Virus record (IMG/VR): IMGVR_UViG_3300031669_000193
Span: 1-27,634 of that record
DNA from: a virus
DNA: 27,634 nucleotides
Strand: one strand, 5' to 3'
Shown: piece by piece, positions 1,122 to 23,874 of the stretch
How positions within the stretch are numbered: the stretch's first letter is position 1
Layout: the number at the start of each line of letters is the position of its first letter
The notes under the pieces: model-generated
Database searches by the model: none
What the model was told of the DNA's origin: nothing
What the model saw: only the letters and a program-made list of their open reading frames with translations
Translations under genes and position numbers: made by a program

Positions 1122-1468
1122 CTAGAGAGTCGAAGCTAATCGTGGCGTACCGCGCAGTACTGCGCGGAGTGACCAACGGTGAATGCATCCACAAGCTGGG
1201 GCTCGGCGCAGTCTATAGGACGCGGATCTCCGACGTCCGGCTGGCGATGGAGGAGAAGTTCGGGCCCCATCCTGCCGGGGACTGGTGCCCGGGCGTGATG
1301 GTCTTTCGCTCGAAGGAGAAGACGATTGTGCGCTGGGAGCTGATCATCCCGGACGGCGCGAACCCAGCTGATCCTTTGCTCTGGCTGCCGGAGACAGAGA
1401 AAGGTGAGAAAAAGCTTGACGCGGCCAAGCGTGGTGCGCTAGATTGTGCTCAGACGCTATTGTTTTAG
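1118..1468 (+). CDS. Hypothetical protein, 116 aa
   Basis: Starts at ATG 1118, overlapping the previous stop as ATGA, with only a weak purine-rich signal upstream. The product has mixed alpha/beta character with several Trp and hydrophobic strands in the middle (TIVRWELIIP). No motif is recognised. Its last codons contain the first copy of the 13-bp palindromic motif (1461-1473), so this gene's 3' end doubles as the control region of bet. Confidence 0.65.
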   Translation: MTRESKLIVAYRAVLRGVTNGECIHKLGLGAVYRTRISDVRLAMEEKFGPHPAGDWCPGVMVFRSKEKTIVRWELIIPDGANPADPLLWLPETEKGEKKLDAAKRGALDCAQTLLF

Positions 1469-1471
1469 AAA
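1444..1471 (+). promoter_or_regulatory. Possible promoter for bet
   Basis: TTGTGC (1444-1449), a 16-base spacer and TAGAAA (1466-1471) lie just before bet. The -35 hexamer is identical to that of the much better portal promoter, also with a 16-base spacer. The -10 matches the sigma70 consensus at 4 of 6 positions and lies inside the palindromic motif, so a bound repressor would block it. The weak -10 keeps confidence low. Confidence 0.35.
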
Positions 1472-1473
1472 CA
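1461..1473 (+). promoter_or_regulatory. Palindromic 13-bp motif, copy 1 (candidate operator)
   Basis: TGTTTTAGAAACA: arms TGTTT and AAACA around TAG. It ends 21 bases before the bet start codon. The identical 13-mer recurs at 4111-4123 and, inverted, at 12580-12592. An exact AT-rich 13-mer three times in 27.6 kb is far above chance, so a shared binding site is likely. The LexA-like protein encoded at 11638 is the obvious candidate binder (inference). Confidence 0.6.
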
Positions 1474-1494
1474 TTTAACAAACGGAGGTGCAGG

Positions 1495-2496
1495 ATGGCA
1501 GTCGCAACAAAGGTCCGAAGTAAACCCGCCAAGAAGTCCAGAAGGAAAACCAAAAAGAAGTCGACGGCTCTCGCCAAGCGGAGCGCAGCTCCGGCTCCCC
1601 GGTATGACAACACGCCTTACTCGCCGAAGGATAAACGCTGGTGGACACCGCGCCGGACGGAGGTGGTCCGGAATCTTTATGCAAAGAACGCCGATGATGA
1701 CCAGTTCGAGGTCTTCAAGGGCGTGGCCATGTCCTTGAACCTCTCTCCGCTGGCGAAGCAGATTTATTGCGTGGTCCGGGATGGAGAGATGGCGATTCAG
1801 ACCGGCATCGATGGTCTGCGCCTGATCGCGCAGCGCACCGAACAGTACCGGGGGCGGACGGAGCCCGAGTGGTGCAGCGTCGATGGCATATTCAAGAAGG
1901 TGCTCGGCCCGAAGGACGCGCTTAACGCCGCGCGGATCGGGGTCAAGCGAGAAGGCTTCACGGATCCGGTCTACGCGGTTGTCTACCTCAGCGAGTACTT
2001 TAATTCTAGTAGCTTCATCTGGGGGAAGATGCCGAGGAACCAGCTCATCAAGTGTGCAGAGGCACAGGCGCTCCGCGCGTGTTTCCCTCAGGAGCTGAGC
2101 GGGCTCTACGCGCACGAGGAGATGCCGGACACGGCTCAGGTAAGCAGCGAAGAGGCCGATGAGCGCAACCGCGTGAAATACGAAAAAGAGTTGCAAACCC
2201 TGATCAGAAAGTTCTATTTTGTTGGTCGCCAAGCTGGTTACAAGGACGCAGAGCTTGAGACGCGGCTTAAGAAGAAGTACAAGATTAACAGTCACAACGA
2301 TGCGTCCCTCGAGCAGCTCAAAGAAGCGATCGCCACGCTGGCAGAGAAGGCCACGCGGAAGGCGACTCGCCGGGGCAAGCTCATCAAACCGGAGGTGAAG
2401 AAGGATGGCGACCAGAAAGGCGGGAAAGACATCAGCGATGCGGAAGTCATCGAAGAAGACGGTGAAGGCAAAGACGGCGCCACCGCGCAGGCGTAA
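1495..2496 (+). CDS. bet: Bet/RecT-family single-strand annealing protein
   Basis: Anneals complementary single-stranded DNA during phage recombination, working with a partner exonuclease. The 333-residue product has a Lys-rich, disordered tail (about 1-45), then a Bet/RecT core (about 55-210) with the recognisable stretches LNLSPLAKQIYCV, the IQTGIDGLRLIA region and KCAEAQALRACFP. The C-terminal ~70 residues are charged and acidic at the end. I chose ATG 1495 because AACGGAGGTG lies just upstream; an in-frame ATG at 1444 lies inside the previous gene and would run through the operator. The last 92 bases also encode the start of the nuclease gene. This is the lambda Red beta equivalent. Confidence 0.92.
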   Translation: MAVATKVRSKPAKKSRRKTKKKSTALAKRSAAPAPRYDNTPYSPKDKRWWTPRRTEVVRNLYAKNADDDQFEVFKGVAMSLNLSPLAKQIYCVVRDGEMAIQTGIDGLRLIAQRTEQYRGRTEPEWCSVDGIFKKVLGPKDALNAARIGVKREGFTDPVYAVVYLSEYFNSSSFIWGKMPRNQLIKCAEAQALRACFPQELSGLYAHEEMPDTAQVSSEEADERNRVKYEKELQTLIRKFYFVGRQAGYKDAELETRLKKKYKINSHNDASLEQLKEAIATLAEKATRKATRRGKLIKPEVKKDGDQKGGKDISDAEVIEEDGEGKDGATAQA

Positions 2497-3676
2497 GACG
2501 CCGAAGGGCTACATCAGCCATACGCAGATCATCACCTACAAACGATGCGGTCTACAGTACAAGACTAAGTATATCGATCACATCGTCCCTGAGGCTTCAT
2601 ACCCGATGAGGCAGGGCTCCGTCGCGCACACGGCGCTGAAGATCATCCATGACACGGCAGCGGCGATCGTCGACAAGCATCCGGACCACGATCCGGAAAT
2701 GCTCTCGAATATGATGGACGCCAGCGACGCGCGGTCTGCGCTCGAGCAGGCGCTGCGCCTCGACTCGAAGCCGGGAGAGATCCTCATGCGAGACGTGCAA
2801 CTTATGGAGGCCGCGCTGGTGCGGTACACCGAGCATCTCATGCAGAACATCCGAGGTATGATCGCCACGGAATATGAGGTGCCGGTGGAGTACAAGCCCG
2901 GGCTGAATCTCTTGGTGGTCATCGACCGGATCAACAGCATAGATGAGGAGACGCTAGAGATCGTCGACTTCAAGTGGAGCTATAACATCCTCTCGAAGAG
3001 CGACCTGCTCGAGGATCAACAGCTCAATCTCTATGCTTACGCGGCAAAGATAATCAATCCGGGGATACGGCGCTTCCGCCTTACGCATTATATGCTCCGC
3101 CAGAATTTTCCCAACTCGATCGAGATCGACGCCGATCAGGTCGTCCACGTGAAGACGGCGGTGGACTACGCGCTGGAGGGGATAGAGACCGGCCAGTTCG
3201 AGCCGCGCATCAATCCCTATTGCCATAATTGTCCAGTCCGTGGTAAGTGCCCGGCCTACGCGGATCGTTTCGCCGTAAACCACGAGCTGATCAACGAGGT
3301 CGGGTCCGCGCACGAGGAATTGCGAGACGTCAACGCGAAGATCGCCAATCTGGACGATCGGAAGGTCGCGCTGCGTGGTTTCATCGGAGGCGAGGTCGAG
3401 GAGAAGGGACCCCAAGAAGTCGAAGGCGGCATCAAGCAATGGGCCTACTGGGAAGCGGAGGGATCAGAGCGCGAGATGAAAGCGACGGTAGAGTTATTCA
3501 GGAAGAATGGACTTGACATCACTCCGCTGATGGCCATAACGTCGAAGAACCTCAGGCTGGCCGCTGACCAGCTGGCCGACCGGGTTCCATTTGAGAAGAT
3601 GAAGGAGATCCGCACGGAGCTAGATAACCTCTGCAAGCGGAAGGTCACGAACCGTTTAGAATGCCGCAAGGTATAG
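2405..3676 (+). CDS. RecB/Cas4-type PD-(D/E)XK nuclease with Fe-S cysteines
   Basis: Probable exonuclease partner of Bet, resecting duplex ends. The 423-residue protein starts with a Lys/Arg-rich tail, then C48 (TYKRCGLQY), the GSVAH motif at 71-75, D174 (VVIDRI), D188 and K190 (IVDFK) as the PD-(D/E)XK core, and Q206/Y210 (QQLNLYAYA). Cysteines 273, 276 and 282 (CHNCPVRGKC) with C48 give the 1+3 pattern known from AddB/Cas4-like 4Fe-4S nucleases. A coiled-coil C-terminal region follows. GGAGGTG at 2391-2397 supports ATG 2405, 92 bases inside bet in another frame. No helicase domain is present. Confidence 0.9.
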   Translation: MATRKAGKTSAMRKSSKKTVKAKTAPPRRRKTPKGYISHTQIITYKRCGLQYKTKYIDHIVPEASYPMRQGSVAHTALKIIHDTAAAIVDKHPDHDPEMLSNMMDASDARSALEQALRLDSKPGEILMRDVQLMEAALVRYTEHLMQNIRGMIATEYEVPVEYKPGLNLLVVIDRINSIDEETLEIVDFKWSYNILSKSDLLEDQQLNLYAYAAKIINPGIRRFRLTHYMLRQNFPNSIEIDADQVVHVKTAVDYALEGIETGQFEPRINPYCHNCPVRGKCPAYADRFAVNHELINEVGSAHEELRDVNAKIANLDDRKVALRGFIGGEVEEKGPQEVEGGIKQWAYWEAEGSEREMKATVELFRKNGLDITPLMAITSKNLRLAADQLADRVPFEKMKEIRTELDNLCKRKVTNRLECRKV

Positions 3677-3688
3677 AAAGGGGGGAAT

Positions 3689-4480
3689 ATGGGGACACGA
3701 GCGGTCCTGTTGGCCGGCGACTTTGGCACTTCGATGTTCGAGCGCCAGCTATCAGGCGGCGCGCGGAATGCATTCGCTTCTTTCCAACGGGCGCTGTGTA
3801 ACTTCGGCGGCTGCATCTATAATCCAGATGCGGTCCACTCTGCGATGTACCACGGCAACACAGATCCGTCGGTCAAGGACGTTAAGAAATGGCTCGATGA
3901 GTACATTAGGCTGGGCGTCGCAGAGCGATTCAAGGCGCCGGACGGCGAGCTCTATTTATTCGTGCCGCGCTACCTAAATGATAATTACCATCGGTCGCGA
4001 TGTGTACCGAGTATCCCCCGGCCGCGCAGCTTGTCCAATAAGATCACGGTCATTGAGTGGAATGAGGGACAGTCGCCGAACGTCAAGGCGTTATTCAAGA
4101 AGAAAAGACGTGTTTTAGAAACAACCCAAAACTTGTTGGGTGAAGGTAAAGGTGAAGGTGAAGATGAACTACAAGACTCAGCTGTGCATGAGGATATCCT
4201 TTCAGTATTCAACCACTACAAAGACAAGATCCAGAGTGGGTGTAGGCCTACTGATAAGGCGCTGCGGAAGATCCGGACGCGATTGAATGAGTTTTCAGTT
4301 GACCAGCTGAAGAAAGCGGTGGACAACCGCGCGGGCGACGCGTGGTTCATGCAGCACAACGCCTCGCGTGGTCCGGCGTGGTTCTTTGAGAGCGAAGACC
4401 GGATTGATGGGTACGTCACAGGCAAACCGAGGAAGAGCGCAGATGATATGAAAAGCGACATCGCAGAGGAGGAAGAGTAA
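3689..4480 (+). CDS. Phage replication protein, two-domain (DnaD/replisome-organiser type)
   Basis: Likely binds the phage origin or the loader during replication initiation. Residues ~1-125 look like a winged-helix region; ~130-165 is a low-complexity linker of Gly/Glu/Lys repeats; ~168-235 is a helical domain (FNHYKDKIQSG, IRTRLNEFSVDQLKKAV, HNASRGPAWFF) resembling the conserved C-terminal domain of phage replisome organisers. It sits directly upstream of a DnaC-like ATPase and overlaps it by one base, the usual initiator-loader pair. GAAAGGGGGG precedes the start. The linker contains copy 2 of the palindromic motif and a small hairpin. Family assignment is by pattern and context. Confidence 0.7.
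   Translation: MGTRAVLLAGDFGTSMFERQLSGGARNAFASFQRALCNFGGCIYNPDAVHSAMYHGNTDPSVKDVKKWLDEYIRLGVAERFKAPDGELYLFVPRYLNDNYHRSRCVPSIPRPRSLSNKITVIEWNEGQSPNVKALFKKKRRVLETTQNLLGEGKGEGEDELQDSAVHEDILSVFNHYKDKIQSGCRPTDKALRKIRTRLNEFSVDQLKKAVDNRAGDAWFMQHNASRGPAWFFESEDRIDGYVTGKPRKSADDMKSDIAEEEE
4111..4123 (+). promoter_or_regulatory. Palindromic 13-bp motif, copy 2 (inside replication gene)
   Basis: Exact TGTTTTAGAAACA, here within the linker-coding part of the replication gene. It is followed at once by an inverted repeat, ACCCAA (4124-4129) and TTGGGT (4136-4141) with a six-base loop. A binding site inside a coding region could act as a roadblock or control internal transcription. Confidence 0.5.
4138..4167 (+). 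repeat. Short GGTGAA/GGTAAA tandem repeat in linker
   Basis: Hexamers of the form GGTGAA or GGTAAA recur in tandem (GGTGAAGGTAAAGGTGAAGG and onward), encoding a Gly-Glu/Gly-Lys linker. The repeat unit is a multiple of three, so copy changes would alter linker length without breaking the frame. Confidence 0.6.
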
Positions 4481-5274
4481 TGGACGCACTGTGGGAAGTA
4501 CCGGAAGACGTCCGGCAAGACGTAGAGAGAATCAAAGCGGCTGGGCTCGGCTTTCCGGATCTTGATACTTCCGCGCCGGTGACGCTGGTCTACGGAAGCG
4601 CAGGGAGTGGCAAGACGAGGTGGGCGGCGAACATCGTCATGAGCGGCCCGGGGTGGTACTACTGCAACGCGATGGACTTGATCGAGCACATGCGGAGCTG
4701 CAAGAACAACGCAGACATCGTGAAGCTAGAGCACGTTCTACACACCGCGCGTCGGCTGGTGATCGACGATGTTGCAAACGAGGCGGGAGAGGTGATCGAT
4801 ACGTTTGGTACGAAGCGCAAGCCGCGAGAGATCATCCGCGTGGCTATGATGAAACGCTTCAGGGAGAATATGCGGACTATCTACCCGACGAACATCAAGC
4901 CATCTTCGATCGTGGCGATCTATGATAAGTCGGATAAGGACCGGGGACGCATCAGCTCGAGGCTGGCGAACCACGCGCTGCTTTATTTTTTCCGTGGCGA
5001 TCGCCGGAAGGGCGAGCAGATGACCCACAAGGCGACTAGGTACATCAAAGATCCAAAAGCCAAGATCGAAACGCTCAAGGCCACGATCCCGCTCTACGAA
5101 GAGCCGGAATTGGATCCGCGACTGAAGCAACCGCTGCGCGAGAAGGACGTCCGGGATGCGCTCGATGCGGTACAGGGTAAGCCGTTGTTGGCTGAGATCT
5201 ATTACCGTTTCCTGCGCGGGACAAAGTTCTCGGACCTCGCGCCTTCGGAGATGGATCAGAAAGGGGGTGAGTGA
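4480..5274 (+). CDS. DnaC-like AAA+ ATPase, probable helicase loader
   Basis: Would load a replicative helicase at the phage fork. The 264-residue protein has a Walker A motif GSAGSGKT at 39-46 and a Walker B-type LVIDDV at 93-98, spaced as in DnaC/IstB ATPases; TYPTNIKPSS around 130-145 is compatible with sensor 1 and SDKDRGRISSRL (~150-160) with an arginine-finger/sensor region. A C-terminal extension of ~80 residues is unrecognised. It follows the replication protein with a one-base overlap. No helicase gene is seen in the window, so the host enzyme or one encoded outside may be used. Confidence 0.8.
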   Translation: MDALWEVPEDVRQDVERIKAAGLGFPDLDTSAPVTLVYGSAGSGKTRWAANIVMSGPGWYYCNAMDLIEHMRSCKNNADIVKLEHVLHTARRLVIDDVANEAGEVIDTFGTKRKPREIIRVAMMKRFRENMRTIYPTNIKPSSIVAIYDKSDKDRGRISSRLANHALLYFFRGDRRKGEQMTHKATRYIKDPKAKIETLKATIPLYEEPELDPRLKQPLREKDVRDALDAVQGKPLLAEIYYRFLRGTKFSDLAPSEMDQKGGE

Positions 5275-5573
5275 TGGGAGACGAAATAACGCGGCGGAAG
5301 TTTCTGGAGAAGGCGATGGAGACTGCGCTTTCAACGCTACTTGTTAGTGCGTTCACCGGTTTGGTCGTCAAAGAAACGAATACTTTAAATGGCGCGAGAG
5401 AATCGATAGCAGAGCTATATGCTACTAAGTTGGAAATGGATCACGCGCATCTTCAGAGAATCTACTTTGGTGATGTCACCGTATACCCAAGCGAAGAAAC
5501 AAAGCAGAGATGGCGGATGGAGATAAAAGCTGCTTATGATCAGTGCTTCAAGCCGGATGGGGGTGATAGATGA
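5274..5573 (+). CDS. Small protein with N-terminal hydrophobic segment, Tat-like motif
   Basis: A 99-residue product starting at ATG 5274 in a TGATG junction (GTG 5271 is also possible). After an acidic start it has TRRKFLEKAMETALS and then a hydrophobic stretch LLVSAFTGLVV, about residues 20-32. The RRKFL followed by a hydrophobic region resembles a twin-arginine signal, but the hydrophobic core is short and no clear cleavage site follows; a membrane-anchored protein is equally possible. The rest is a soluble helix. From here to about 7260 the DNA is visibly more AT-rich than its neighbours. Confidence 0.65.
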   Translation: MGDEITRRKFLEKAMETALSTLLVSAFTGLVVKETNTLNGARESIAELYATKLEMDHAHLQRIYFGDVTVYPSEETKQRWRMEIKAAYDQCFKPDGGDR

Positions 5574-5797
5574 AGAAGATAGATCCGTGTCCGCTTTGTA
5601 AGGGAGAGTACTATCGTGGTAAAGCCGAAGCGTACCGAGAGATGTTTGGCGAGAGCATCCGCACAGCGCAGATGAAAAGCGTGATGGTGTGCAAAAATTG
5701 CAAGCATTGGTCTGGCTTCAAGTGCCGCAAAACCAGAACGTCTGTGTGCGGAAGTGACCGCTGCGGCAAGTGGGAAATTAAAAGGGGGAATAGATGA
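5570..5797 (+). CDS. Zinc-ribbon small protein, 75 aa
   Basis: Two cysteine pairs are prominent: CPLC (7-10) and CKNC (41-44), with further Cys at CRKTRTSVCGSDRCGKW. Enough ligands for one or two zinc ions. ATGA overlap with the preceding gene and the same arrangement with the next. One of a set of very small Cys-x2-Cys proteins in this region. Function unknown; nucleic-acid or protein binding is the usual role of such folds. Confidence 0.7.
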   Translation: MKKIDPCPLCKGEYYRGKAEAYREMFGESIRTAQMKSVMVCKNCKHWSGFKCRKTRTSVCGSDRCGKWEIKRGNR

Positions 5798-6132
5798 GCA
5801 AGCAGAGAGACAAGCGGGTAGAGGAAGCGGTGGAGAAGGTAAGGGAAATATACAAGGATGTAAACACAGAAATACACGGTCAAGAGCAGGAGATAGAAAA
5901 AGTCAAAGCACTCCTCACCAACCTACTTAACACCCAGACGTCAAGAATAAGGGATAGCCTATTGGAAGCGAAGGAATTACTTGGAAAAAGAATATGCCCG
6001 TTAGACCAATCATCGGAGAATCCAGACGAAGATGTGTGTAGTTGTCCAACGTGCGAGGAGTTTAATGAGGGCGTGATAATCATAGACAACGCATTGGAAG
6101 CCATAACCCCCACGGGTAAAGGAGGAGAGTGA
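5794..6132 (+). CDS. Coiled-coil small protein, 112 aa
   Basis: Residues 1-60 form a charged amphipathic helix with heptad-like spacing (VEEAVEKVREIYKDV, EQEIEKVKALLTNLL). A CPLDQS...CSCPTC segment follows, with four Cys that might bind zinc. It ends in GKGGE, encoded by the ribosome binding site of the next gene. Coupled to both neighbours. No family recognised. Confidence 0.65.
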   Translation: MSKQRDKRVEEAVEKVREIYKDVNTEIHGQEQEIEKVKALLTNLLNTQTSRIRDSLLEAKELLGKRICPLDQSSENPDEDVCSCPTCEEFNEGVIIIDNALEAITPTGKGGE

Positions 6133-6134
6133 TG
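6117..6134 (+). repeat. Repeated RBS/start module, copy 1
   Basis: TAAAGGAGGAGAGTGATG: a strong Shine-Dalgarno, the TGA of one gene and the ATG of the next in one 18-base block. Four near-identical copies occur between 6117 and 6906. The match to copy 4 extends four bases further, to 22 bases. Confidence 0.8.
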
Positions 6135-6485
6135 AGCGAGAAGAAAAGTTTACAGCAAGGAGTGGAGGAGTTGAGGGATGAGGTGTTGCTGGAGATAGAA
6201 ACGTCCAGCGAAGAACACACGCATAGTGATGAAGCACTAGCCGAACAACTAAAAGAAGCCTACAACAAAGTCCTCACCCTCATCAAGCAACACGAAGCCA
6301 ACAGACCGAGTGTGGATAAGGCGGTGGAGGAGATACTACAGTTGTCGGACACAGAGGGATTGTGGAAAGTAAAGCACGGGCCGTTGCTAGATGAAGCAAA
6401 CCCGAAACTCAAAGCAATCCTCCTCTCCCTATCCCCAGCCACAAAGGAACAGCAACCACCCAGCGATAAAGGAGGAGAGCGATGA
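6132..6485 (+). CDS. Acidic helical small protein, 117 aa
   Basis: Starts at ATG 6132 in a TGATG junction (GTG 6129 lies just before). Mostly helical and strongly acidic (VEELRDEVLLEIETSSEE, AEQLKEAYNKVLTLI). There is no cysteine. The C-terminus SDKGGER is read from the next gene's ribosome binding site. Its length and helical start are similar to the preceding gene, so the pair could be distant duplicates, but this is not clear by eye. Function unknown. Confidence 0.6.
   Translation: MSEKKSLQQGVEELRDEVLLEIETSSEEHTHSDEALAEQLKEAYNKVLTLIKQHEANRPSVDKAVEEILQLSDTEGLWKVKHGPLLDEANPKLKAILLSLSPATKEQQPPSDKGGER
6458..6484 (+). repeat. 27-bp direct repeat, copy A (contains RBS/start module copy 2)
   Basis: The 27 bases beginning ACCCAGCGATAAAGGAGGAG and ending at an ATG are repeated at 6632-6658 with one difference (C for T). 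The two copies flank the 48-codon membrane-protein gene exactly, so that gene is a repeat-bounded unit. Confidence 0.85.
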
Positions 6486-6628
6486 AGATGAGTAAAGAGG
6501 AATTGAAGGTTCTTAAAGGGGCGGCAGGGGCGTTGCTTGCTTTGCGAGTTCTGTTTTATTTCATCGCAGGGTCAATCGTATGCAACTTTGTGTGGGAAGT
6601 AATTCGCCGTATATATTTTTGGAGATAA
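6482..6628 (+). CDS. Small single-span membrane protein, 48 aa
   Basis: Starts at ATG 6482 (ATGA overlap) behind AAAGGAGGAG. The product has a basic N-terminus (MKMSKEELKVLKG), then a hydrophobic span of roughly residues 14-41 (GAAGALLALRVLFYFIAGS and on), and a basic end (RRIYFWR). This is a typical phage mini membrane protein. The gene is bounded by the 27-bp direct repeats. It could affect host membrane functions or superinfection; nothing specific is visible. Confidence 0.65.
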   Translation: MKMSKEELKVLKGAAGALLALRVLFYFIAGSIVCNFVWEVIRRIYFWR

Positions 6629-6631
6629 TCT

Positions 6632-6658
6632 ACCCAGCGATAAAGGAGGAGAGTGATG
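6632..6658 (+). repeat. 27-bp direct repeat, copy B (contains RBS/start module copy 3)
   Basis: Second copy of the repeat described at 6458-6484, 26 of 27 bases identical. It supplies the Shine-Dalgarno and start codon of the following zinc-ribbon gene. Four bases separate the membrane-protein stop from the repeat. Confidence 0.85.
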
Positions 6659-6904
6659 GCAGATGATACGAACAACCTTGATTTTCCTTCTGCTGCCGAG
6701 GTATTAAGCGACAAGTCGCCGGTGGATGAGTGTCCGGTTTGTGATACCACCACTGACTATTTCGAGTATCGCTTTAAGGACGGTGGGAGATGGGAGTTTT
6801 GGAAATGTCCGCGTGGGCACGGTAAGTGGCAGTTAAAAAAGGGGGAGCCGGAACTAAAAGCGTGGTGGAAAGAAAATCTTGACCAGAGTAAAGGAGGAGA
6901 GTGA
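6656..6904 (+). CDS. Zinc-ribbon small protein, 82 aa
   Basis: Starts at ATG 6656, the final ATG of the repeat. A single zinc ribbon is evident: CPVC at about 26-29 and CPRGH at about 51-55, separated by a beta-rich, aromatic stretch (YFEYRFKDGGRWEFWK). That is a CxxC...CxxxH arrangement. It ends in SKGGE, read from the next ribosome binding site. Function unknown; the fold is common in phage nucleic-acid-binding mini-proteins. Confidence 0.7.
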   Translation: MADDTNNLDFPSAAEVLSDKSPVDECPVCDTTTDYFEYRFKDGGRWEFWKCPRGHGKWQLKKGEPELKAWWKENLDQSKGGE

Positions 6905-6906
6905 TG
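6889..6906 (+). repeat. Repeated RBS/start module, copy 4
   Basis: TAAAGGAGGAGAGTGATG again, identical to copy 1. The match with copy 1 continues to AGCG (6889-6910 versus 6117-6138, 22 bases), so the first codons of the two downstream genes are also shared. Confidence 0.8.
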
Positions 6907-7281
6907 AGCGTAGTAGTTAGATGTGGTGATTGTAAGAAGAAGTATTTTGAAGGAAAGACCAGTGAGATTGACGCGGAATATACGGGTCTAATATGCGAGA
7001 AGTGCGCATATATAAAAGCGCTGACAGCGCTAGAAGGTGTGAGTCTCGAGGTGGAATCGTATTGGGAGGAGGCGATCGGCGAGGGCGAGAATATGTACGA
7101 TTGGGTGCAAACGGTGATCGGAGATGCTATCGTGGGTATAAGGGGCCCGCGTGCGCGGAAGATCAAGCTAGACCCATGCGATGTCCCTATGGAGCACCGG
7201 AAGGAGTGCCGCAAGAACACCGGGGTGAAAACTTGTGACGAGTGCATAGCAAAGCTAATTCCTATAACAAAGGGGGAGTGA
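6904..7281 (+). CDS. Small protein with two CxxC pairs at each end, 125 aa
   Basis: Starts at ATG 6904 (TGATG junction). The N-terminus has CGDC (about 7-10) and CEKC (about 31-34), a likely zinc ribbon. A second group, CDVPMEHRKEC and CDEC, lies near the C-terminus. The central ~50 residues are helical and acidic (SYWEEAIGEGENMYDWVQ). It ends in TKGE, read from the next Shine-Dalgarno. No family recognised. Confidence 0.65.
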   Translation: MSVVVRCGDCKKKYFEGKTSEIDAEYTGLICEKCAYIKALTALEGVSLEVESYWEEAIGEGENMYDWVQTVIGDAIVGIRGPRARKIKLDPCDVPMEHRKECRKNTGVKTCDECIAKLIPITKGE

Positions 7282-7523
7282 TGGAGCTGGTGAAGAGCGA
7301 TTTCAAATGCATACGCTGTAAGGGAGAGACGGGAGACTGGACGCCCGGGTGGTCGTGGTGCGCGAACTGCAAGATCTACATCCACCGGGCCAGCGGGACG
7401 GTGAAGGACACGCAGCGGCAGAAGACGTACTTCTGCTTTATGTGTGGACAGCGTATGGAGGGCAAGCTAAGAGAGTGCCCAGCCTGCGGAGTTCAAAACC
7501 CATGGGAGGAAGACGATGGCTAA
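7281..7523 (+). CDS. Double zinc-ribbon protein, 80 aa
   Basis: The start is ATG 7281, one base into the upstream TGA, preceded by AAGGGGGAG; an in-frame ATG at 7242 lies inside the previous gene and has no signal. Four CxxC pairs form two zinc ribbons: CIRC (10-13) with CANC (27-30), and CFMC (52-55) with CPAC (66-69). Basic middle, acidic C-terminus. Such double ribbons usually bind nucleic acid or a polymerase/ribosomal partner. Role here unknown. Confidence 0.7.
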   Translation: MELVKSDFKCIRCKGETGDWTPGWSWCANCKIYIHRASGTVKDTQRQKTYFCFMCGQRMEGKLRECPACGVQNPWEEDDG

Positions 7524-7665
7524 GCGCAACACTAAGTGGCAAGGGATGAATCCAGATCACCAGCTGCAGTTGATCTATGACCGGATTGGTCTGGCGATGT
7601 GGTGGCTGGCAGCGCTCGCGGTCGAGGGCGCGGCGCTGCTTTACATCTTACTGAGGGGGTTCTGA
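7516..7665 (+). CDS. Small single-span membrane protein, 49 aa
   Basis: ATG 7516 lies inside the last codons of the zinc-ribbon gene, preceded by GGGAGGAAGACG. The product has a basic, polar N-terminus (MAKRNTKWQGMNPDHQ) and a hydrophobic segment from about residue 25 to 46 (IGLAMWWLAALAVEGAALLY). It ends in LLRGF. The stop overlaps the next start (TGATG). No family is recognisable. Confidence 0.6.
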   Translation: MAKRNTKWQGMNPDHQLQLIYDRIGLAMWWLAALAVEGAALLYILLRGF

Positions 7666-8060
7666 TGGCGGATCACGAATTGAAAACCTGGCCGGACTAC
7701 TTCCGGATGGTGGAGAGCGGCCACAAGTCGTTTGAGGTGCGACGGTATGACAGGAATTTTCAGCCAGGCGAGATGCTCCTGCTGCGCGAATGGGATCCGG
7801 TTGATGAGGAATACACCGGGCGACAGGTGGAACGGCGCATCAGTTTCATACTGACGGGCGGTAAATTCGGGATCGAGGCTGGATTCTGCATCTTGCAGCT
7901 ATATGAGGGCGACACGGAGAAGGCACTGCGTGAAGCGAGGTACAAGCTGGATGAATTGAAAGATATTTTTATATTCAATACTCCGGAAGGCAGGGGTGCC
8001 GCATGGCACCAGTTTGCGAAGTATCTCGACGAGTCTATTAAGTCAGCGAAGGGGGAATGA
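7665..8060 (+). CDS. ASCH/PUA-like protein (DUF3850 type)
   Basis: The 131-residue product starts HELKTWPDYFRMVESGHKSF, followed by EVRRYDRNFQPGEMLLLREW and EEYTGRQVERRISFIL. This order (HxLK, GxKxFExRxxDRxFxxGDxLxLxEW, YTGR) is the signature I know for DUF3850, a compact ASCH-superfamily fold thought to bind RNA or modified nucleotides. The family domain ends near residue 90; an extra helical tail of ~40 residues follows. ATG 7665 overlaps the upstream TGA, whereas the frame's earlier ATG at 7599 lies inside the membrane-protein gene. Its role in phage is unknown. Confidence 0.85.
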   Translation: MADHELKTWPDYFRMVESGHKSFEVRRYDRNFQPGEMLLLREWDPVDEEYTGRQVERRISFILTGGKFGIEAGFCILQLYEGDTEKALREARYKLDELKDIFIFNTPEGRGAAWHQFAKYLDESIKSAKGE

Positions 8061-8224
8061 TGGAGAACTCAGCGGTGAAAGCGCTTCGCCTCGAGCGGCA
8101 GAAGGCAGAGAAGAAGCGGCGCGATATCAAGACTAAGATTGATCGGCTGCAGCAGGACGACGCCAAGCTGATGGAACAGATCGATAGCCTAGACGAGGCG
8201 ATCAAGGTGTTGGAGAAGCAATGA
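8060..8224 (+). CDS. Short coiled-coil protein, 54 aa
   Basis: Starts at ATG 8060 with AAGGGGGA upstream, in a TGATG junction, and ends in an ATGA overlap with the next gene. Nearly the whole protein is one charged heptad helix (KALRLERQKAEKKRRDIKTK, then IDSLDEAIKVLEKQ), expected to form a dimeric coiled coil. Function unknown. Confidence 0.65.
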   Translation: MENSAVKALRLERQKAEKKRRDIKTKIDRLQQDDAKLMEQIDSLDEAIKVLEKQ

Positions 8225-8730
8225 GCAGCAAGATCCCAGACAGCGAAGTGAGGCGGCGCCGCGCGGAGTTCCGGAATGCGCACCGCTATTGCTGGGCGAT
8301 GCTGACCAAGAGCGATGGGATCTATGTTTGCATGGCCTACTGCAGGACCGGCTACTGGCCGCATCATTTGGCGCGAGGCCGGGGTCGCGACGAGCACGAA
8401 TCGCTGGCGAATTACTATCCACTCGCGGATCCACCGATCGATAATCACCACATGGGATATGCCCACGCGCAGGACCCGAGTTATGGACTGACGGAGCGAG
8501 AGACGCGCCTCTGGATGTTCGCATTTAAGTACTTGATCGGGGAGGCGACGATCGAGGAGATCGAATTCCTGATGAAGGGTCGACGCTGGTGGGAGTCTAG
8601 CTACATGGCGCCAGATATGACGCTGCGTATGGTGATCAATGACCGCGCGTCGGCGCTGCAGCGCAGCGTGAGAAATCTCGATTTTGTTAAGAAAAAGCTT
8701 GCCAGAGGGGGTGATGCCGTGATATTATGA
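8221..8730 (+). CDS. Cys/His-containing protein, possible HNH-type nuclease
   Basis: A 169-residue protein. C24, C37 and C41 are followed by HH at 48-49, N64 (SLANYYPL) and HH at 76-77. The spacing H-15-N-12-H and the sequence PHHLARGRGRDEHESLANYY fit the outline of an HNH endonuclease fold, but the usual zinc CxxC pairs are not both present and the fit is loose. The C-terminal half is helical, Trp-rich and ends in a basic segment. Treat as hypothetical with a possible HNH fold. Confidence 0.45.
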   Translation: MSSKIPDSEVRRRRAEFRNAHRYCWAMLTKSDGIYVCMAYCRTGYWPHHLARGRGRDEHESLANYYPLADPPIDNHHMGYAHAQDPSYGLTERETRLWMFAFKYLIGEATIEEIEFLMKGRRWWESSYMAPDMTLRMVINDRASALQRSVRNLDFVKKKLARGGDAVIL

Positions 8731-8808
8731 TGCTGCGAATCGGAGGACACCGGAAGCTGCTGGAGCGAACGGTGCGAAACGCAACCCTGAAAGGAGGAGG
8801 AACGCACG

Positions 8809-9522
8809 ATGGCTGGAAACGCAGGAACCGCAGTACTCGACCCAACCGAGACGGAAGCAATCAGGAAAGAAAGTGAATCGGCAGTAGCGACCATCGAAGG
8901 CCTCAAGGTGACCAACGAGATCACCAACACCGAGGCTGGCGACGCGCTCAAGCGGATCAAGCGCGTCAAGGACCGCATCGTAGATTGGATCTCGCCGACG
9001 AAGAAGTCGGCCCGGGCCACCTACGAAGGTCTGAGGCAGATGGAGAAGGATCTACTTTCGATTCCAGAACGTGCAGAGCGGCACGTGCGTGGCGAGATGG
9101 AGGGCTACGCGGATGTCCGGCGCAAGGCGCAGCAAGAGAAGATGCGGAAAGAGCAGGCGCGTCTTCAAGCAGAAGCCGACGAGCGTAGGGAGAAGGAACT
9201 CGCGGAGCTGGCTAAGAAACGCGACGCAGAGAGTAAGCGGCGCAAGAAAGAGTTGGAGGAGACGCCGGTCGTGGTCGATGCAGTTCCGGAGAAGGAACTC
9301 ATGAAGACCTCCGCGGCGGGCGTCTCGAATAGGCAGATTTGGCAGTTCGATGTCCAGAGCAAGTCCACGCTTGTTCAGGCGGCCGCGAAGGATCCGAAGC
9401 TGCTCGACTACCTGAAGGTCGACGAAGCGGCGGTCGGCAAGATCGTCCGCGCCGCGAGGGGTAAGATCGAGATCCCCGGAATACACGCTTATCCCAAAGA
9501 GGTCGTTTCGGCCAGAACGTAA
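8809..9522 (+). CDS. Coiled-coil phage protein next to SSB
   Basis: A 237-residue product behind AAAGGAGGAGG. Residues ~15-150 are a long charged helix, partly coiled coil (RRKAQQEKMRKEQARLQAEA). The C-terminal ~70 residues are globular: SNRQIWQFDVQSKSTL, LLDYLKVDEAAVGKIVRAAR, IEIPGIHAYPK. I recognise this last pattern (IWxFxV ... YLxxDExxIGxxVRAxxGxxxIPGI) from phage proteins encoded beside recombination and SSB genes, with no firmly assigned function. A role with recombination is suggested only by location. It resembles Gam-like host-nuclease inhibitors in length and helicity, but I see no specific match. Confidence 0.7.
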   Translation: MAGNAGTAVLDPTETEAIRKESESAVATIEGLKVTNEITNTEAGDALKRIKRVKDRIVDWISPTKKSARATYEGLRQMEKDLLSIPERAERHVRGEMEGYADVRRKAQQEKMRKEQARLQAEADERREKELAELAKKRDAESKRRKKELEETPVVVDAVPEKELMKTSAAGVSNRQIWQFDVQSKSTLVQAAAKDPKLLDYLKVDEAAVGKIVRAARGKIEIPGIHAYPKEVVSART

Positions 9523-9531
9523 GGGGGATTC

Positions 9532-10056
9532 ATGCCAGACTATCAGAACTACACAATCGTTGGACGGCTCACCAAGGACCCCAAGTCGAATATCGTTGGC
9601 GACGACCTGCATGTCTGCAACTTCACGGTCGCAACGAATCGGTGGAAGAAGGGTGGTGAGAAGGTCGTCCACTTTCAGTCCTGCACGGTGTGGGGGAAGC
9701 AGGCGGAGGCGTGTTCGCAATACCTTTTCAAAGGCGATCCGGTGATGGTTGTCGGATACCTCGAGACTAGCAAATGGGATAGCGACGACGGACAGAAGCA
9801 CAGCATAACCAAATGCATAGCTCAGAAGGTCGTCTTCCTACGCTCGAAGAAGGACGGACGCGCAGTTCCGCAGGATGAGAACGAAGACTCACAGGTGCCG
9901 CCGGAGGAGAGAGATGAATCTCCCAGCAAACCGGGACGTACCAAACAAGGTAAGGGCGTTATCGATAACGATCCGGATCCGGACGACGCGGTCGGCAGGC
10001 AGCAGCAGCCGGACCCAGAAGAGCCGGGTGAGGACGACGATGATGTCCCTTTTTAA
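9532..10056 (+). CDS. ssb: Single-stranded DNA-binding protein
   Basis: Binds ssDNA at replication and recombination sites. Residues 1-107 form the OB-fold domain (NYTIVGRLTKDPKSN, VCNFTVATNRW, CTVWGKQAEACSQYLFKGDP, VVGYLETSKW). A long acidic, disordered tail follows and ends in DDDDVPF, very close to the DDDIPF tip of bacterial SSB that docks host partners such as RecO, PriA and exonuclease I. The preserved tip suggests that the phage protein recruits host factors. Start ATG 9532 is preceded by AAGGGGG. Length (174) is typical of SSB. Confidence 0.95.
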   Translation: MPDYQNYTIVGRLTKDPKSNIVGDDLHVCNFTVATNRWKKGGEKVVHFQSCTVWGKQAEACSQYLFKGDPVMVVGYLETSKWDSDDGQKHSITKCIAQKVVFLRSKKDGRAVPQDENEDSQVPPEERDESPSKPGRTKQGKGVIDNDPDPDDAVGRQQQPDPEEPGEDDDDVPF

Positions 10057-10072
10057 ATGAGGTGGAACAGAG

Positions 10073-11641
10073 ATGCGGAAACCACCTAGTTATGACCCTA
10101 CAGTTCAGATCACGCAATGCATGCTTACGCGCAGCGCGCTTAATCGAAGGGTTGACGCCAACGGAGAAGCGCTCCGCGAGCTCTCGGACTCGATTAAAAA
10201 GCACGGCATCTTGCAGCCGCTACTCGTTAGAGAGCAGAGAGCGCCGGGCGAAAACCAGGGGGAGTATAAGATCACCGGCTACGAAATCATCGCCGGAGAA
10301 CGGCGCTTCCATGCGGCGATCAAGGCCGGACTTTCGGCGCTGCCATGCAAGGTCATCGACTGCAGTGACGAAGAAGCGGTCGAGATCATGATCATCGAGA
10401 ATCTTCACCGTAAGGATTTACACCCGCTCGATGAGGCGCGGGGTTATGCAGAGTTGATCAAGCTCAAGTACTCAGCGTCGAAGATCGCTAGTGAGATCGG
10501 CAAGTCCGAGTCCTACATCGCCAAGCGTATTAAGCTGAATGAGCTGGCGGAACCCGCCAAGAAGCTATTCAAGGATGGGAAGATTGCGCTCTCTGCTGCA
10601 TTAGCGGTCGCGCGGATACCAGACGATAGGCTTCAGGAGAAGGCGGCGGATGAGATCGCGGCGAACTCGTGGATGCGGGCGGGCGATAACGCGAGGAAAC
10701 ACGTCGTCGAGAAATTCATGGTGCGGTTGAAAGACGCGTGGTTCAAGCTGGACGATCGGAAGCTGGTCGAGGACGCCGGGCCCTGTACCGAGTGCGACAA
10801 GCAGACAGACAAGGCGCCGCGACTCTTCGATGATATTGGCAAGGACGCGCACTGCACGGATCCGGCTTGCTACCGCAGGAAGGTGAAGTCGCTCCGGAAA
10901 CGGCTCGTGGCTCACGCGAAGTCGACGGGCGTGGACCTGCTTGACGGCGACCGCGCGAAGAACGTGTTGCAGGGCGAGGGCATGGGGTGGAACTCGATCT
11001 ATACGATCATCTCTGGCAAGTGCCAGTACAGCGATAATGGAATGCTCTGGAGCAAGGTTCTGGCCGGGCAGGAGATCCAGCGTTGCGCAATCATCACGAG
11101 CCGTGGGCGGTGGCTAGACCTCGCGTTGTCAAAGGACGTCGCCAGGGTGCTGCGGAAGCTGGGATTCAAGAAGTTGCCAAGTGTGTATGAGCCCAGCCAG
11201 CAACAGGCCGTCGCAACCGAAACGCCAGCTCAGAAGGAAAAGCAGGAACGCGCGGCATACATCGCTCGTGCAGAACGTGAGATCTTCTGCACGGCGGTCG
11301 GTGAATGTGCAGAGAAGGCCAAGCTCGAACATGATCACATGAGGATCCTCGCGGAGACGGTCGCCGATCGGTACTATAGGGATACAGCGCCGATTCGGAA
11401 GCGTCTCGGAGTTCGGAACTTGCGGGGATTCGCGTGGAAGGGATCGCCATCAAAGGTGCTGAGCATGTGCATGGAGATGATCGCGCGGTCTGGCGAGCTT
11501 GACAAGCCGCTGTTGAAGACCTTCAAACTGGACCCGAGGGCGATCACCAAGCAGGCGGCGACTGAGTATGACCTGCTCAAGAAGGCAGCGGAGAAGAAGG
11601 TGAAGCCCAAGGCGAAACCCGCGAAGGGAAAGAAGAAATGA
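10073..11641 (+). CDS. ParB/Spo0J-family protein with Cys cluster
   Basis: A 522-residue protein. Residues ~10-120 are a ParB N-terminal (CTPase/sulfiredoxin-like) domain with GERR at 75-78 and ENLHRKDLHPLDEA at 109-122. Residues ~130-165 are the HTH (YSASKIASEIGKSESYIAKR). A Cys group (CTECDKQTDK ... HCTDPACYRRK, about 242-270) may bind zinc. The rest is helical and ends in a Lys-rich tail. No ParA lies beside it, so a partition role would need one elsewhere; phage ParB-like proteins also serve as transcription or replication factors. It overlaps the LexA-like gene by four bases. Confidence 0.82.
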   Translation: MRKPPSYDPTVQITQCMLTRSALNRRVDANGEALRELSDSIKKHGILQPLLVREQRAPGENQGEYKITGYEIIAGERRFHAAIKAGLSALPCKVIDCSDEEAVEIMIIENLHRKDLHPLDEARGYAELIKLKYSASKIASEIGKSESYIAKRIKLNELAEPAKKLFKDGKIALSAALAVARIPDDRLQEKAADEIAANSWMRAGDNARKHVVEKFMVRLKDAWFKLDDRKLVEDAGPCTECDKQTDKAPRLFDDIGKDAHCTDPACYRRKVKSLRKRLVAHAKSTGVDLLDGDRAKNVLQGEGMGWNSIYTIISGKCQYSDNGMLWSKVLAGQEIQRCAIITSRGRWLDLALSKDVARVLRKLGFKKLPSVYEPSQQQAVATETPAQKEKQERAAYIARAEREIFCTAVGECAEKAKLEHDHMRILAETVADRYYRDTAPIRKRLGVRNLRGFAWKGSPSKVLSMCMEMIARSGELDKPLLKTFKLDPRAITKQAATEYDLLKKAAEKKVKPKAKPAKGKKK

Positions 11642-12174
11642 CCAGTCCGCCTACGGATAAGCAGCTGAAGGTGCTCAAGTTACTCATGAAGTACACGCTA
11701 TCGAACGGTTACCCTCCGACGCTTGCTGAGATGGCGAAAACTCTTCGGCGCGCTGTTCCGACTGTATGGCAATCTGTCCGGGCATTGAAAAGAAAGGGTT
11801 TGATCAAGTCTGGGGAGGGCAAAACCAGAACGATTACCGTTACTCCGAAGGGATCCATGCTCTGTTCGGAAGAAACGCGCTCGGTAGCCAAGGCTCCGGA
11901 AATCACCTTTGATAGCTTGACAGCTGCTATCAAAACTATTCCTCGGGTCGGTTCTGCGCCAACGATAGTGACGAAGAAGGAGAACCTCAGCATCGTAGAT
12001 CGAGTGCTCGGTGTGGTGGAAGACGACGGCGAGACAGTGAGTGGTTTGTTCTTCTCGGAAATCATTGTTAGTGAGTTGGTCCCGGAGCGAAACAAAAATG
12101 GCCAATTGGTCGCATGGATGATGGGTAAGGACAGAGAAGGTAATGACTACGTTAGAGAATTAATTTTAGAATGA
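11638..12174 (+). CDS. LexA-type winged-helix regulator without visible autoprotease
   Basis: Residues ~8-68 match the LexA DNA-binding domain: LKLLMKYTLSNGYPPTLAEM, then AVPTVWQSVRALKRKGLI and a basic wing GKTRTITVTPKG. The remaining ~105 residues show no S24 cleavage region or catalytic Ser/Lys pattern, so it is unlikely to be a self-cleaving SOS repressor. The C-terminal part (SIVDRVLGVVEDDGET ... DREGNDYVRELILE) looks beta-rich and is not recognised. It is the best candidate to bind the TGTTT-N3-AAACA motifs. ATGA overlap with the ParB-like gene. Confidence 0.75.
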   Translation: MTSPPTDKQLKVLKLLMKYTLSNGYPPTLAEMAKTLRRAVPTVWQSVRALKRKGLIKSGEGKTRTITVTPKGSMLCSEETRSVAKAPEITFDSLTAAIKTIPRVGSAPTIVTKKENLSIVDRVLGVVEDDGETVSGLFFSEIIVSELVPERNKNGQLVAWMMGKDREGNDYVRELILE

Positions 12175-12187
12175 AAGGAGAGTAGAA

Positions 12188-12508
12188 ATGCCACTATGGT
12201 ACGTCGAGTTAGCTGATTCGTTGCGTAAAGCGATCCTCGCGCTCGGAGAGGCGATCGAGAACTTCAGCACCGAAACGATCAAGAAGCAACCCCAGTTTGC
12301 GGACACGCTCGGGCAGGTGATGCTCCACATTTCTCAGGCGATATCGCAGGTCACCAAGGCCGGAGAAGCGCTCGATGACTTCGTGAAGGACTTCAAGAGC
12401 TGGGAAGCGGATCAGAAGCAAGGCAAGATCCCCGGAACTAGTCCGGAGGAAACGAAACCGGCGCCAAAGAAGGAGAAGTCCGACAAGAAGGAGAATCCAG
12501 TCGGATAG
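12188..12508 (+). CDS. Small helical protein with charged tail, 106 aa
   Basis: Behind AAAGGAGAGTAG. Residues 1-75 are predicted helical with hydrophobic repeats (LADSLRKAILALGEAIENF, MLHISQAISQVTKAG); the tail is Lys/Pro/Glu-rich and disordered. No motif is recognised. It is the last gene before the strong terminator at 12531, so it closes the recombination/replication operon. Confidence 0.7.
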   Translation: MPLWYVELADSLRKAILALGEAIENFSTETIKKQPQFADTLGQVMLHISQAISQVTKAGEALDDFVKDFKSWEADQKQGKIPGTSPEETKPAPKKEKSDKKENPVG

Positions 12509-12530
12509 TGCCCCCACGGCTGGTTCTCTA

Positions 12531-12561
12531 GGGGGAGCGGTTTCTCACCGCTCCCCCGTTT
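12531..12561 (+). terminator. Rho-independent-type terminator
   Basis: A perfect 10-bp stem, GGGGGAGCGG (12531-12540) and CCGCTCCCCC (12548-12557), with loop TTTCTCA, followed by GTTTG. The U tract is short, but the stem is very stable and sits between the end of one operon and an operator-bearing start of the next. Confidence 0.8.
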
Positions 12562-12579
12562 GTCGGCCATGTCGAGAAT

Positions 12580-12592
12580 TGTTTCTAAAACA
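12580..12592 (-). promoter_or_regulatory. Palindromic 13-bp motif, copy 3 (candidate operator)
   Basis: TGTTTCTAAAACA on the + strand, the exact reverse complement of copies 1 and 2. It lies between the terminator and the nuclease start at 12601, the only control region available to the nuclease gene. Position right before the gene fits repression. I could not settle on -35/-10 boxes here. Confidence 0.6.
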
Positions 12593-12600
12593 TAGAGAAT

Positions 12601-13170
12601 ATGAAAGAGCGAGTGATCACACAGCGGCTGCAGGCATGGCTTAAGAAGCGCGGATGGATCGTCTACAAGCCACCGGACACCTACGGCGCCGACACTGTTT
12701 GCCCGACCTGCGTCAGGGAAGGGAGAGACGGGACGCTCTACTGCAGGACATGCGCCAAAGAGATCGAGAAAGATATGACCAGCCGCTTCACGCCTTACAA
12801 GCCAGCCGATCTAGCTGTGCTGCAGAGCCCTATCAGCTGGGGGGGGTGGATCGAGGTGAAGCAGAGCAAGGCGCGAACGGAGAAGGGCATGACGTTCCGA
12901 CCCAAGTACGTCAAGCCACATCAGGCCAAGGCGATGGCGCAGACGGACGGCTTTCTCGCGCTGGCGTTCGTGCAGGAGCGCAAGCCAGAGAAAGAGCAGG
13001 TTATCGGCGTCTATCTGGTGCGCTGGGCCAAGATCATGGAGAGTGAAGTCGTGACCCGGGCTGAGATCCGGGAGCTTGCAGAGATCACGGTCAAGGATTC
13101 GCCGGAGGTGGTGCCAGTGGTTGTGAGGAAAGAAAAAGACCCGGCGTTTGCTTTTATGGATCAGGAGTGA
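12601..13170 (+). CDS. PD-(D/E)XK nuclease with inserted zinc ribbon
   Basis: A 189-residue protein. An N-terminal helix (QRLQAWLKKRGWIVYK) leads to a core with D70 (PADLAVL), E85 and K87 (GGWIEVKQSK), and Q108 (KPHQAKAM), a complete D-ExK-Q set like VRR-NUC or Holliday-junction-resolvase-like phage nucleases. Between the first helix and D70 are two CxxC pairs, CPTC (34-37) and CRTC (48-51), a zinc-ribbon insertion. Its substrate is unknown; branched DNA or modified/foreign DNA are plausible. The start ATG has little Shine-Dalgarno and lies only nine bases after the palindromic motif, so the message may have a very short leader. Confidence 0.75.
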   Translation: MKERVITQRLQAWLKKRGWIVYKPPDTYGADTVCPTCVREGRDGTLYCRTCAKEIEKDMTSRFTPYKPADLAVLQSPISWGGWIEVKQSKARTEKGMTFRPKYVKPHQAKAMAQTDGFLALAFVQERKPEKEQVIGVYLVRWAKIMESEVVTRAEIRELAEITVKDSPEVVPVVVRKEKDPAFAFMDQE

Positions 13171-17869: not shown

Positions 17870-17897
17870 TTGTGCTGAAATGGGCCGGTGATATAAT
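17870..17897 (+). promoter_or_regulatory. Sigma70-type promoter for portal
   Basis: TTGTGC (17870-17875), 16-base spacer, TATAAT (17892-17897, perfect -10), then GGGAGGTCAAGG and the portal ATG at 17922. It lies in the 61-base gap after the large terminase gene, one of the few true intergenic gaps here. Confidence 0.75.
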
Positions 17898-23838: not shown

Positions 23839-23866
23839 TTGACAGCGAAATGAGCCATGCTAATAT
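23839..23866 (+). promoter_or_regulatory. Sigma70-type promoter of the capsid operon
   Basis: TTGACA (23839-23844, perfect -35), 16-base spacer, TAATAT (23861-23866) with an extended TGC just upstream. The expected transcript start, about seven bases after the -10, falls on the ATG at 23873. The gap 23768-23872 holds nothing else that I can name except partial TTCGCG repeats at 23782-23796. Confidence 0.75.
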
Positions 23867-23874
23867 AGGCTCAT
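23850..23874. promoter_or_regulatory. Inverted repeat over the -10 and start codon (candidate operator)
   Basis: ATGAGCC (23850-23856) and GGCTCAT (23868-23874) are perfect inverted 7-base arms with an 11-base centre. The palindrome covers the -10 box and the first two bases of the ATG. It could be a repressor site. In a transcript starting farther upstream, the same repeat would form a hairpin hiding the start codon. Confidence 0.65.

Follow-up and report, generated by a model that had tools for sequence, protein, structure and literature searches.

A 13-bp palindromic word with three exact copies in a phage genome: candidate sites of a phage DNA-binding protein

What protein, if any, is served by a short palindromic word that recurs at three dispersed places in a phage genome? 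The virus record IMGVR_UViG_3300031669_000193 (27,634 bases, 55% GC), which was analysed over its whole length and is referred to here as the window, carries three exact copies of the near-palindrome TGTTTTAGAAACA (Table 1). Arms of 5 bp flank a 3-bp centre, TAG, that is identical in all three copies. This dyad word is real and not random, its placement looks regulatory, and the phage lineage that carries it is isolated. We tentatively suggest that they are dyad-symmetric sites of one phage DNA-binding protein, likeliest the replication initiator, and that they comprise an origin and two operators. The finding is ordinary in kind.

Copies of the 13-mer and chance expectation

A search of the whole record found TGTTTTAGAAACA at the places and on the strands given by an earlier sequence-only reading of this DNA, and no fourth copy. 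That reading also held that three copies exceed chance, and this was borne out by two null models, namely 3000 synonymous-codon shuffles that kept the proteins and the codon pool, and 1500 order-2 Markov sequences. Some 13-mer occurred three times in 5.4% of the former and 1.9% of the latter, a loosely palindromic one (at least 5 of 6 pairs) did so in 0.07% of each, and neither set held a sequence with three copies of a 13-mer whose 5-bp outer arms were perfect (0/3000 and 0/1500). The record itself holds seven 13-mers with at least three copies; six overlap within one ribosome-binding-site repeat near 6117-6900, and the seventh is TGTTTTAGAAACA. Three small genes share the 18-bp repeat TAAAGGAGGAGAGTGATG, at 6117, 6641 and 6889, which covers their ribosome-binding site and GTG-ATG start.

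The full-genome scan with TGTTT-N3-AAACA that the sequence-only reading had proposed gave six matches at up to two mismatches against 5.4 expected, and no convincing extra variant. Duplication of a longer stretch was ruled out as the source of the three copies, their flanks being unlike each other. A repeated promoter was also ruled out, promoter-like sites numbering 11 compared to 10.1 in shuffles. A text search of the available literature did not return TGTTTTAGAAACA and returned GCAGACGTCTGC in one paper, on DNA crossovers.

Two copies had been described as lying just ahead of genes and the third as lying in a replication gene, and the genes concerned proved to be recT, a resolvase-like gene and rep, respectively. 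Non-coding DNA is touched by two of the three copies compared to 6.9% of 13-mers (P ~0.014, contingent on the gene calls used), and a placement of sites 1 and 3 where operators would be is supported. Site 1 precedes the recT, exonuclease, rep and helicase loader genes. The start of the resolvase-like gene (12601), which follows site 3, has no clear Shine-Dalgarno sequence, in contrast to its ortholog in locus L172.

The replication initiator as candidate binder

An alignment scan of viral contigs with TerL identified one close relative, IMGVR_UViG_3300031565_000074 (46,427 bases). These scans covered the best 80 of 402 loci for TerL, the best 80 of 334 for ParB and 13 loci for the exonuclease, and the same scan with Rep returned a single locus, which belongs to this relative. 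Single-protein scans of viral contigs with the LexA-like protein, ParB, TerL and RecT found no close relative and one LexA-domain match at 29% (L004). No further clear Rep ortholog was found with a Rep profile over the open reading frames (ORFs) of 239 loci, and tblastn with Rep as query gave no match in the phage collection. A TerL scan of genome contigs reached identities of at most 35% and revealed no close prophage and no host. The early region of the relative matches the window proteins 1118, RecT, exonuclease, Rep, loader, 8221, 8809, SSB (65%), ParB, resolvase, methylase and 14912.

The rep gene of the relative contains a 17-bp palindrome, AAAGTTTCTGAAACTTT, with the same GTTT-N3-AAAC core and at the position matching site 2. 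In the protein alignment, R-K-V-S-E-T of the relative stands opposite R-R-V-L-E-T of the window. In the loci covering the relative's record, the GTTT-N3-AAAC core occurs twice, in the rep palindrome and once elsewhere. Among the 80 TerL loci (L092-L171), three have a single TGTTT-N3-AAACA each. A fair test of the rep palindrome is conditional on the protein, because the residues V, E and T are conserved. With the protein fixed, codon redraws reproduced the core in 1.8% of cases under the codon usage of the genome and in 10.7% under a preference for A/T-ending codons; 36% of the codons in the ortholog's rep linker end in G/C compared to 75% genome-wide. An earlier view of the relative's palindrome as very unlikely by chance was dropped after this test. 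The palindrome appears to be kept in the one ortholog found (1/1), with p 0.02-0.11 given its protein, which is suggestive only.

We rank Rep first among the candidate binders because rep is present in both phages and holds the sole site with any sign of conservation. The copy in rep would mark an origin-like element within the initiator gene, while the copies ahead of recT-exonuclease-rep-loader and ahead of the resolvase and methylase genes would be operators under the same protein. Counted in support are the triple exact copies relative to the nulls, the two copies in gaps that precede groups of genes, the location of site 2 in a linker-like part of Rep, the ortholog palindrome and the adjacent helicase loader. 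The name replication initiation comes from a weak phrog_428 match for Rep and a weak phrog_2149 match for the relative's ortholog. A structure model of Rep built from the two sequences shows a winged-helix-like order of elements at residues 41-91 and, from 164, a helical part with better scores. Between them lies a low-confidence, linker-like stretch (93-162), in which the site 2 codons are predicted to fall. The surroundings of site 2 hold one palindrome, weak direct repeats (GGTGAAGGTAAAGGTGAAGGTGAAG-type, starting downstream at 4137) and locally low G+C. Site 2 also ranks low in codon usage, which was not used as evidence because an A+T-rich word forces such a rank.

The layout resembles that of the Bacillus phage SPP1, whose gp38 is described in PMC6316719 and PMC3485210 as binding two origins, oriL within gene 38 itself and oriR at a distance. 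In the window, too, an initiator-like gene lies beside a helicase loader gene, a candidate site lies in the initiator gene and another kilobases away, and a single-strand annealing protein, an exonuclease and a resolvase are encoded. Between the two initiators no sequence relation was found, and none was looked for. In contrast to the single palindrome per place seen here, SPP1 origins consist of direct repeats and an A+T-rich element.

Several results weigh against assigning the sites to Rep. TGTTT-N3-AAACA is absent from the relative's record and from four other records (0/5). The relative has no such palindrome upstream of recT or of the resolvase gene, so that sites 1 and 3 have no counterpart there. 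The conditional codon test counts on the same side, as does the single ortholog in the data examined. The Rep model has a mean predicted local distance difference test (pLDDT) score of 54 and showed no fold match to solved structures at E 0.001. Known phage origins of this type have direct repeats, and here there is one palindrome with weak ones. Taken together, Rep remains a tentative first choice; ParB comes second and the LexA-like protein lower, at the same level as a host factor or chance.

ParB and the palindrome of its kin

It is possible, though doubtful, that the three sites are parS sites of the phage ParB, that is, few and dispersed exact palindromes for loading of a clamp dependent on cytidine triphosphate (CTP), one of them in rep. 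The window ParB has the N-terminal CTPase-type and helix-turn-helix domains (PF02195, E 2.5e-20; PF17762, E 4.7e-15; TIGR00180 above cut-off), and ParB is common to both phages at 39% identity. A parB gene with a few dispersed palindromes is also what is seen in ParB-parS systems of bacterial chromosomes, plasmids and phages, and the outer letters TGTTT/AAACA occur in bacterial parS as well.

Loci encoding related ParB proteins were compared with TerL-selected controls. Near-duplicate removal left 75 of 80 ParB loci (77 of 82 with the phages Aval and VarioGold) and 121 of 130 controls. The pattern GTGCA-N6-TGCAC was present in 42/75 ParB loci, against 4 expected, and in 2/121 controls. Its 16-bp, ACGT-centred form GTGCAGACGTCTGCAC, at up to two mismatches, was found inside parB in 57/77 loci, outside it in 46/77 and in both positions in 37/77. 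As background, 1/121 TerL-selected loci had it, and five order-2 shuffles of the 77 loci gave 0, 0, 0, 0 and 1. In most cases the in-gene copy coincides with an S or G codon followed by A-D-V-C-T, where serine is encoded by AGT in 31/34 cases (161/2283 across these genes) and alanine by GCA in 51/56 (925/5913 across these genes). The use of these rare codons favours selection at the DNA level. We suggest GTGCAGACGTCTGCAC, which recurs in the loci L012-L091 and in the phages Aval and VarioGold, as a candidate parS for this group of phage ParB proteins. A literature search on phage parS within the parB gene turned up one item, on B. subtilis transformation.

The ParB kin thus show the same copy pattern of few, dispersed palindromes as the window. 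One recognition-helix residue, compared with the Caulobacter ParB numbering, is K or R in 65/66 site-bearing and 8/11 site-less loci (Fisher p 0.008, optimistic since the loci are related). The same residue is E in the window ParB and P in the relative; the window ParB may therefore have another target. However, the kin site is 16 bp with an ACGT centre, whereas the window word is 13 bp with an odd centre, and no copy lies inside or adjoining parB in the window. The kin 16-mer had no match in the window at up to four mismatches. TGTTT-N3-AAACA was found in 0/87 loci L005-L091, ParB kin included, the canonical parS pattern was found in none of these same loci, to which its scan was confined, and palindromes with TGTTT or GTTTC half-sites were not enriched across the ParB kin. 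In its specific form the proposal is improbable: the three sites would be a parS that is shortened and oddly spaced, and the change from K/R to E at the recognition helix would have moved the target from the kin 16-mer to the 13-mer. If it were true, the replication gene and the genes for recombination would both be marked by a single CTP-clamp protein.

Other palindromes were noted in the same set of loci. L020 has three identical 15-bp palindromes, GTAGCCATTGGCTAC, at 531, 3887 and 6856, just 3' of -10-like sequences and ~35-60 bp before gene starts, and the recognition helix of its ParB has A where the kin have K or R. Paired operator-like palindromes of the types AAACA-N3-TGTTT and AGCCAT-N2-ATGGCT lie near repressor-like genes in L012 (2743, 2767, 3960, 3984) and L013 (1361, 2457, 2481).

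The LexA-like protein, host factors and gene context

The sequence-only reading had proposed that the LexA-like protein could use the three sites as a non-cleavable repressor, which we consider unlikely. Its description of the protein was accurate: there is a LexA DNA-binding domain (PF01726, E 2.5e-11), and no S24 match was found in Pfam at E 0.1, with TIGR00498 covering residues 6-71 only, below cut-off. The structure prediction that it proposed for the C-terminal half was run and gave no usable model (mean pLDDT 37, uninformative). Short palindromes together with an encoded LexA-type DNA-binding domain recall LexA operators and phage LexA-domain repressors. LexA operators vary widely and include short palindromes such as TTAC-N3-GTAA (PMC8565304), although the letters and spacing of the window word differ from the motifs given there. 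The LexA-like protein, one of 43 window proteins with which the relative was queried, has no counterpart there (best match 38 residues, E 0.21). The gene, site 1 and site 3 are thus all missing from the relative, which fits the proposal, and use of those two sites by the LexA-like protein stays compatible with the relative lacking them. In contrast, the relative has its rep palindrome without the gene, so that the protein cannot account for that palindrome; the comparison involves one relative. Unlike in LexA systems, the regulator's own gene has no site inside or adjoining it; no copy of TGTTTTAGAAACA lies at its promoter, the nearest being 406 bp past the gene end. Binding by the LexA-like protein is possible but unsupported.

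About equally unlikely is that the word has no common phage function and reflects chance or sites for a host regulator. The sole close relative has neither site 1 nor site 3, site 2 lies in coding DNA, and many windows were scanned, so that a rare word is expected somewhere. Against this, a palindromic 13-mer in three copies arises in the nulls at no more than ~0.0007 per genome, and two of the three copies touch scarce non-coding DNA.

Features of the region are listed in Table 1. Elsewhere in the window, two good sigma-70-like promoters were observed, TTGACA-N16-TAATAT at 23839-23872, which ends 6 bp before an ATG and looks leaderless, and TTGTGC-N16-TATAAT at 17870-17897, upstream of the 17922 gene.

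Table 1. Features around the three copies of the 13-mer in the window, and positions of the ParB-kin palindrome in two phage loci
Feature	Position	Strand	Remarks
Site 1	1461..1473	+	TGTTTTAGAAACA; overlaps stop codon of ORF 1118-1468, ends 21 bp 5' of recT ATG (1495)
Site 2	4111..4123	+	TGTTTTAGAAACA; within rep ORF 3689-4480, codes ~residues 141-145
Site 3	12580..12592	-	TGTTTTAGAAACA; ends 8 bp ahead of ATG 12601 of resolvase-like ORF
Promoter-like TTGACG-N18-TAGATT	1416..1445	+	directly ahead of site 1; 9/12 letters match; such matches no more frequent than in shuffles
Perfect 11-bp hairpin	12531..12557	+	ahead of site 3; terminator-like stem, no clear T run
RecT/Bet-like single-strand annealing protein	1495..2496	+	family matches
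PD-(D/E)XK exonuclease	2405..3676	+	family matches
rep, replication-initiator-like	3689..4480	+	weak phrog_428 match; adjoins helicase loader
DnaC-like helicase loader	4480..5274	+	clear phrog_50 match
ParB, candidate binder	10073..11641	+	ParB N-terminal and helix-turn-helix domains
LexA-like protein, candidate binder	11638..12174	+	LexA-type DNA-binding domain, S24 domain not detected
Holliday-junction-resolvase-like protein	12601..13170	+	weak phrog_843 match
GTGCAGACGTCTGCAC in Acidovorax phage Aval (L005)	3608, 5782
GTGCAGACGTCTGCAC in Variovorax phage VarioGold (L006)	3302, 5749

The recurrent parS-like palindrome of the ParB kin, often in the parB frame, would let many phage ParB targets be predicted and tested. 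For the window itself, a dispersed dyad site of which one copy lies in the initiator gene would mean that this uncultured phage lineage has a small regulon and an origin that can be put to the test.

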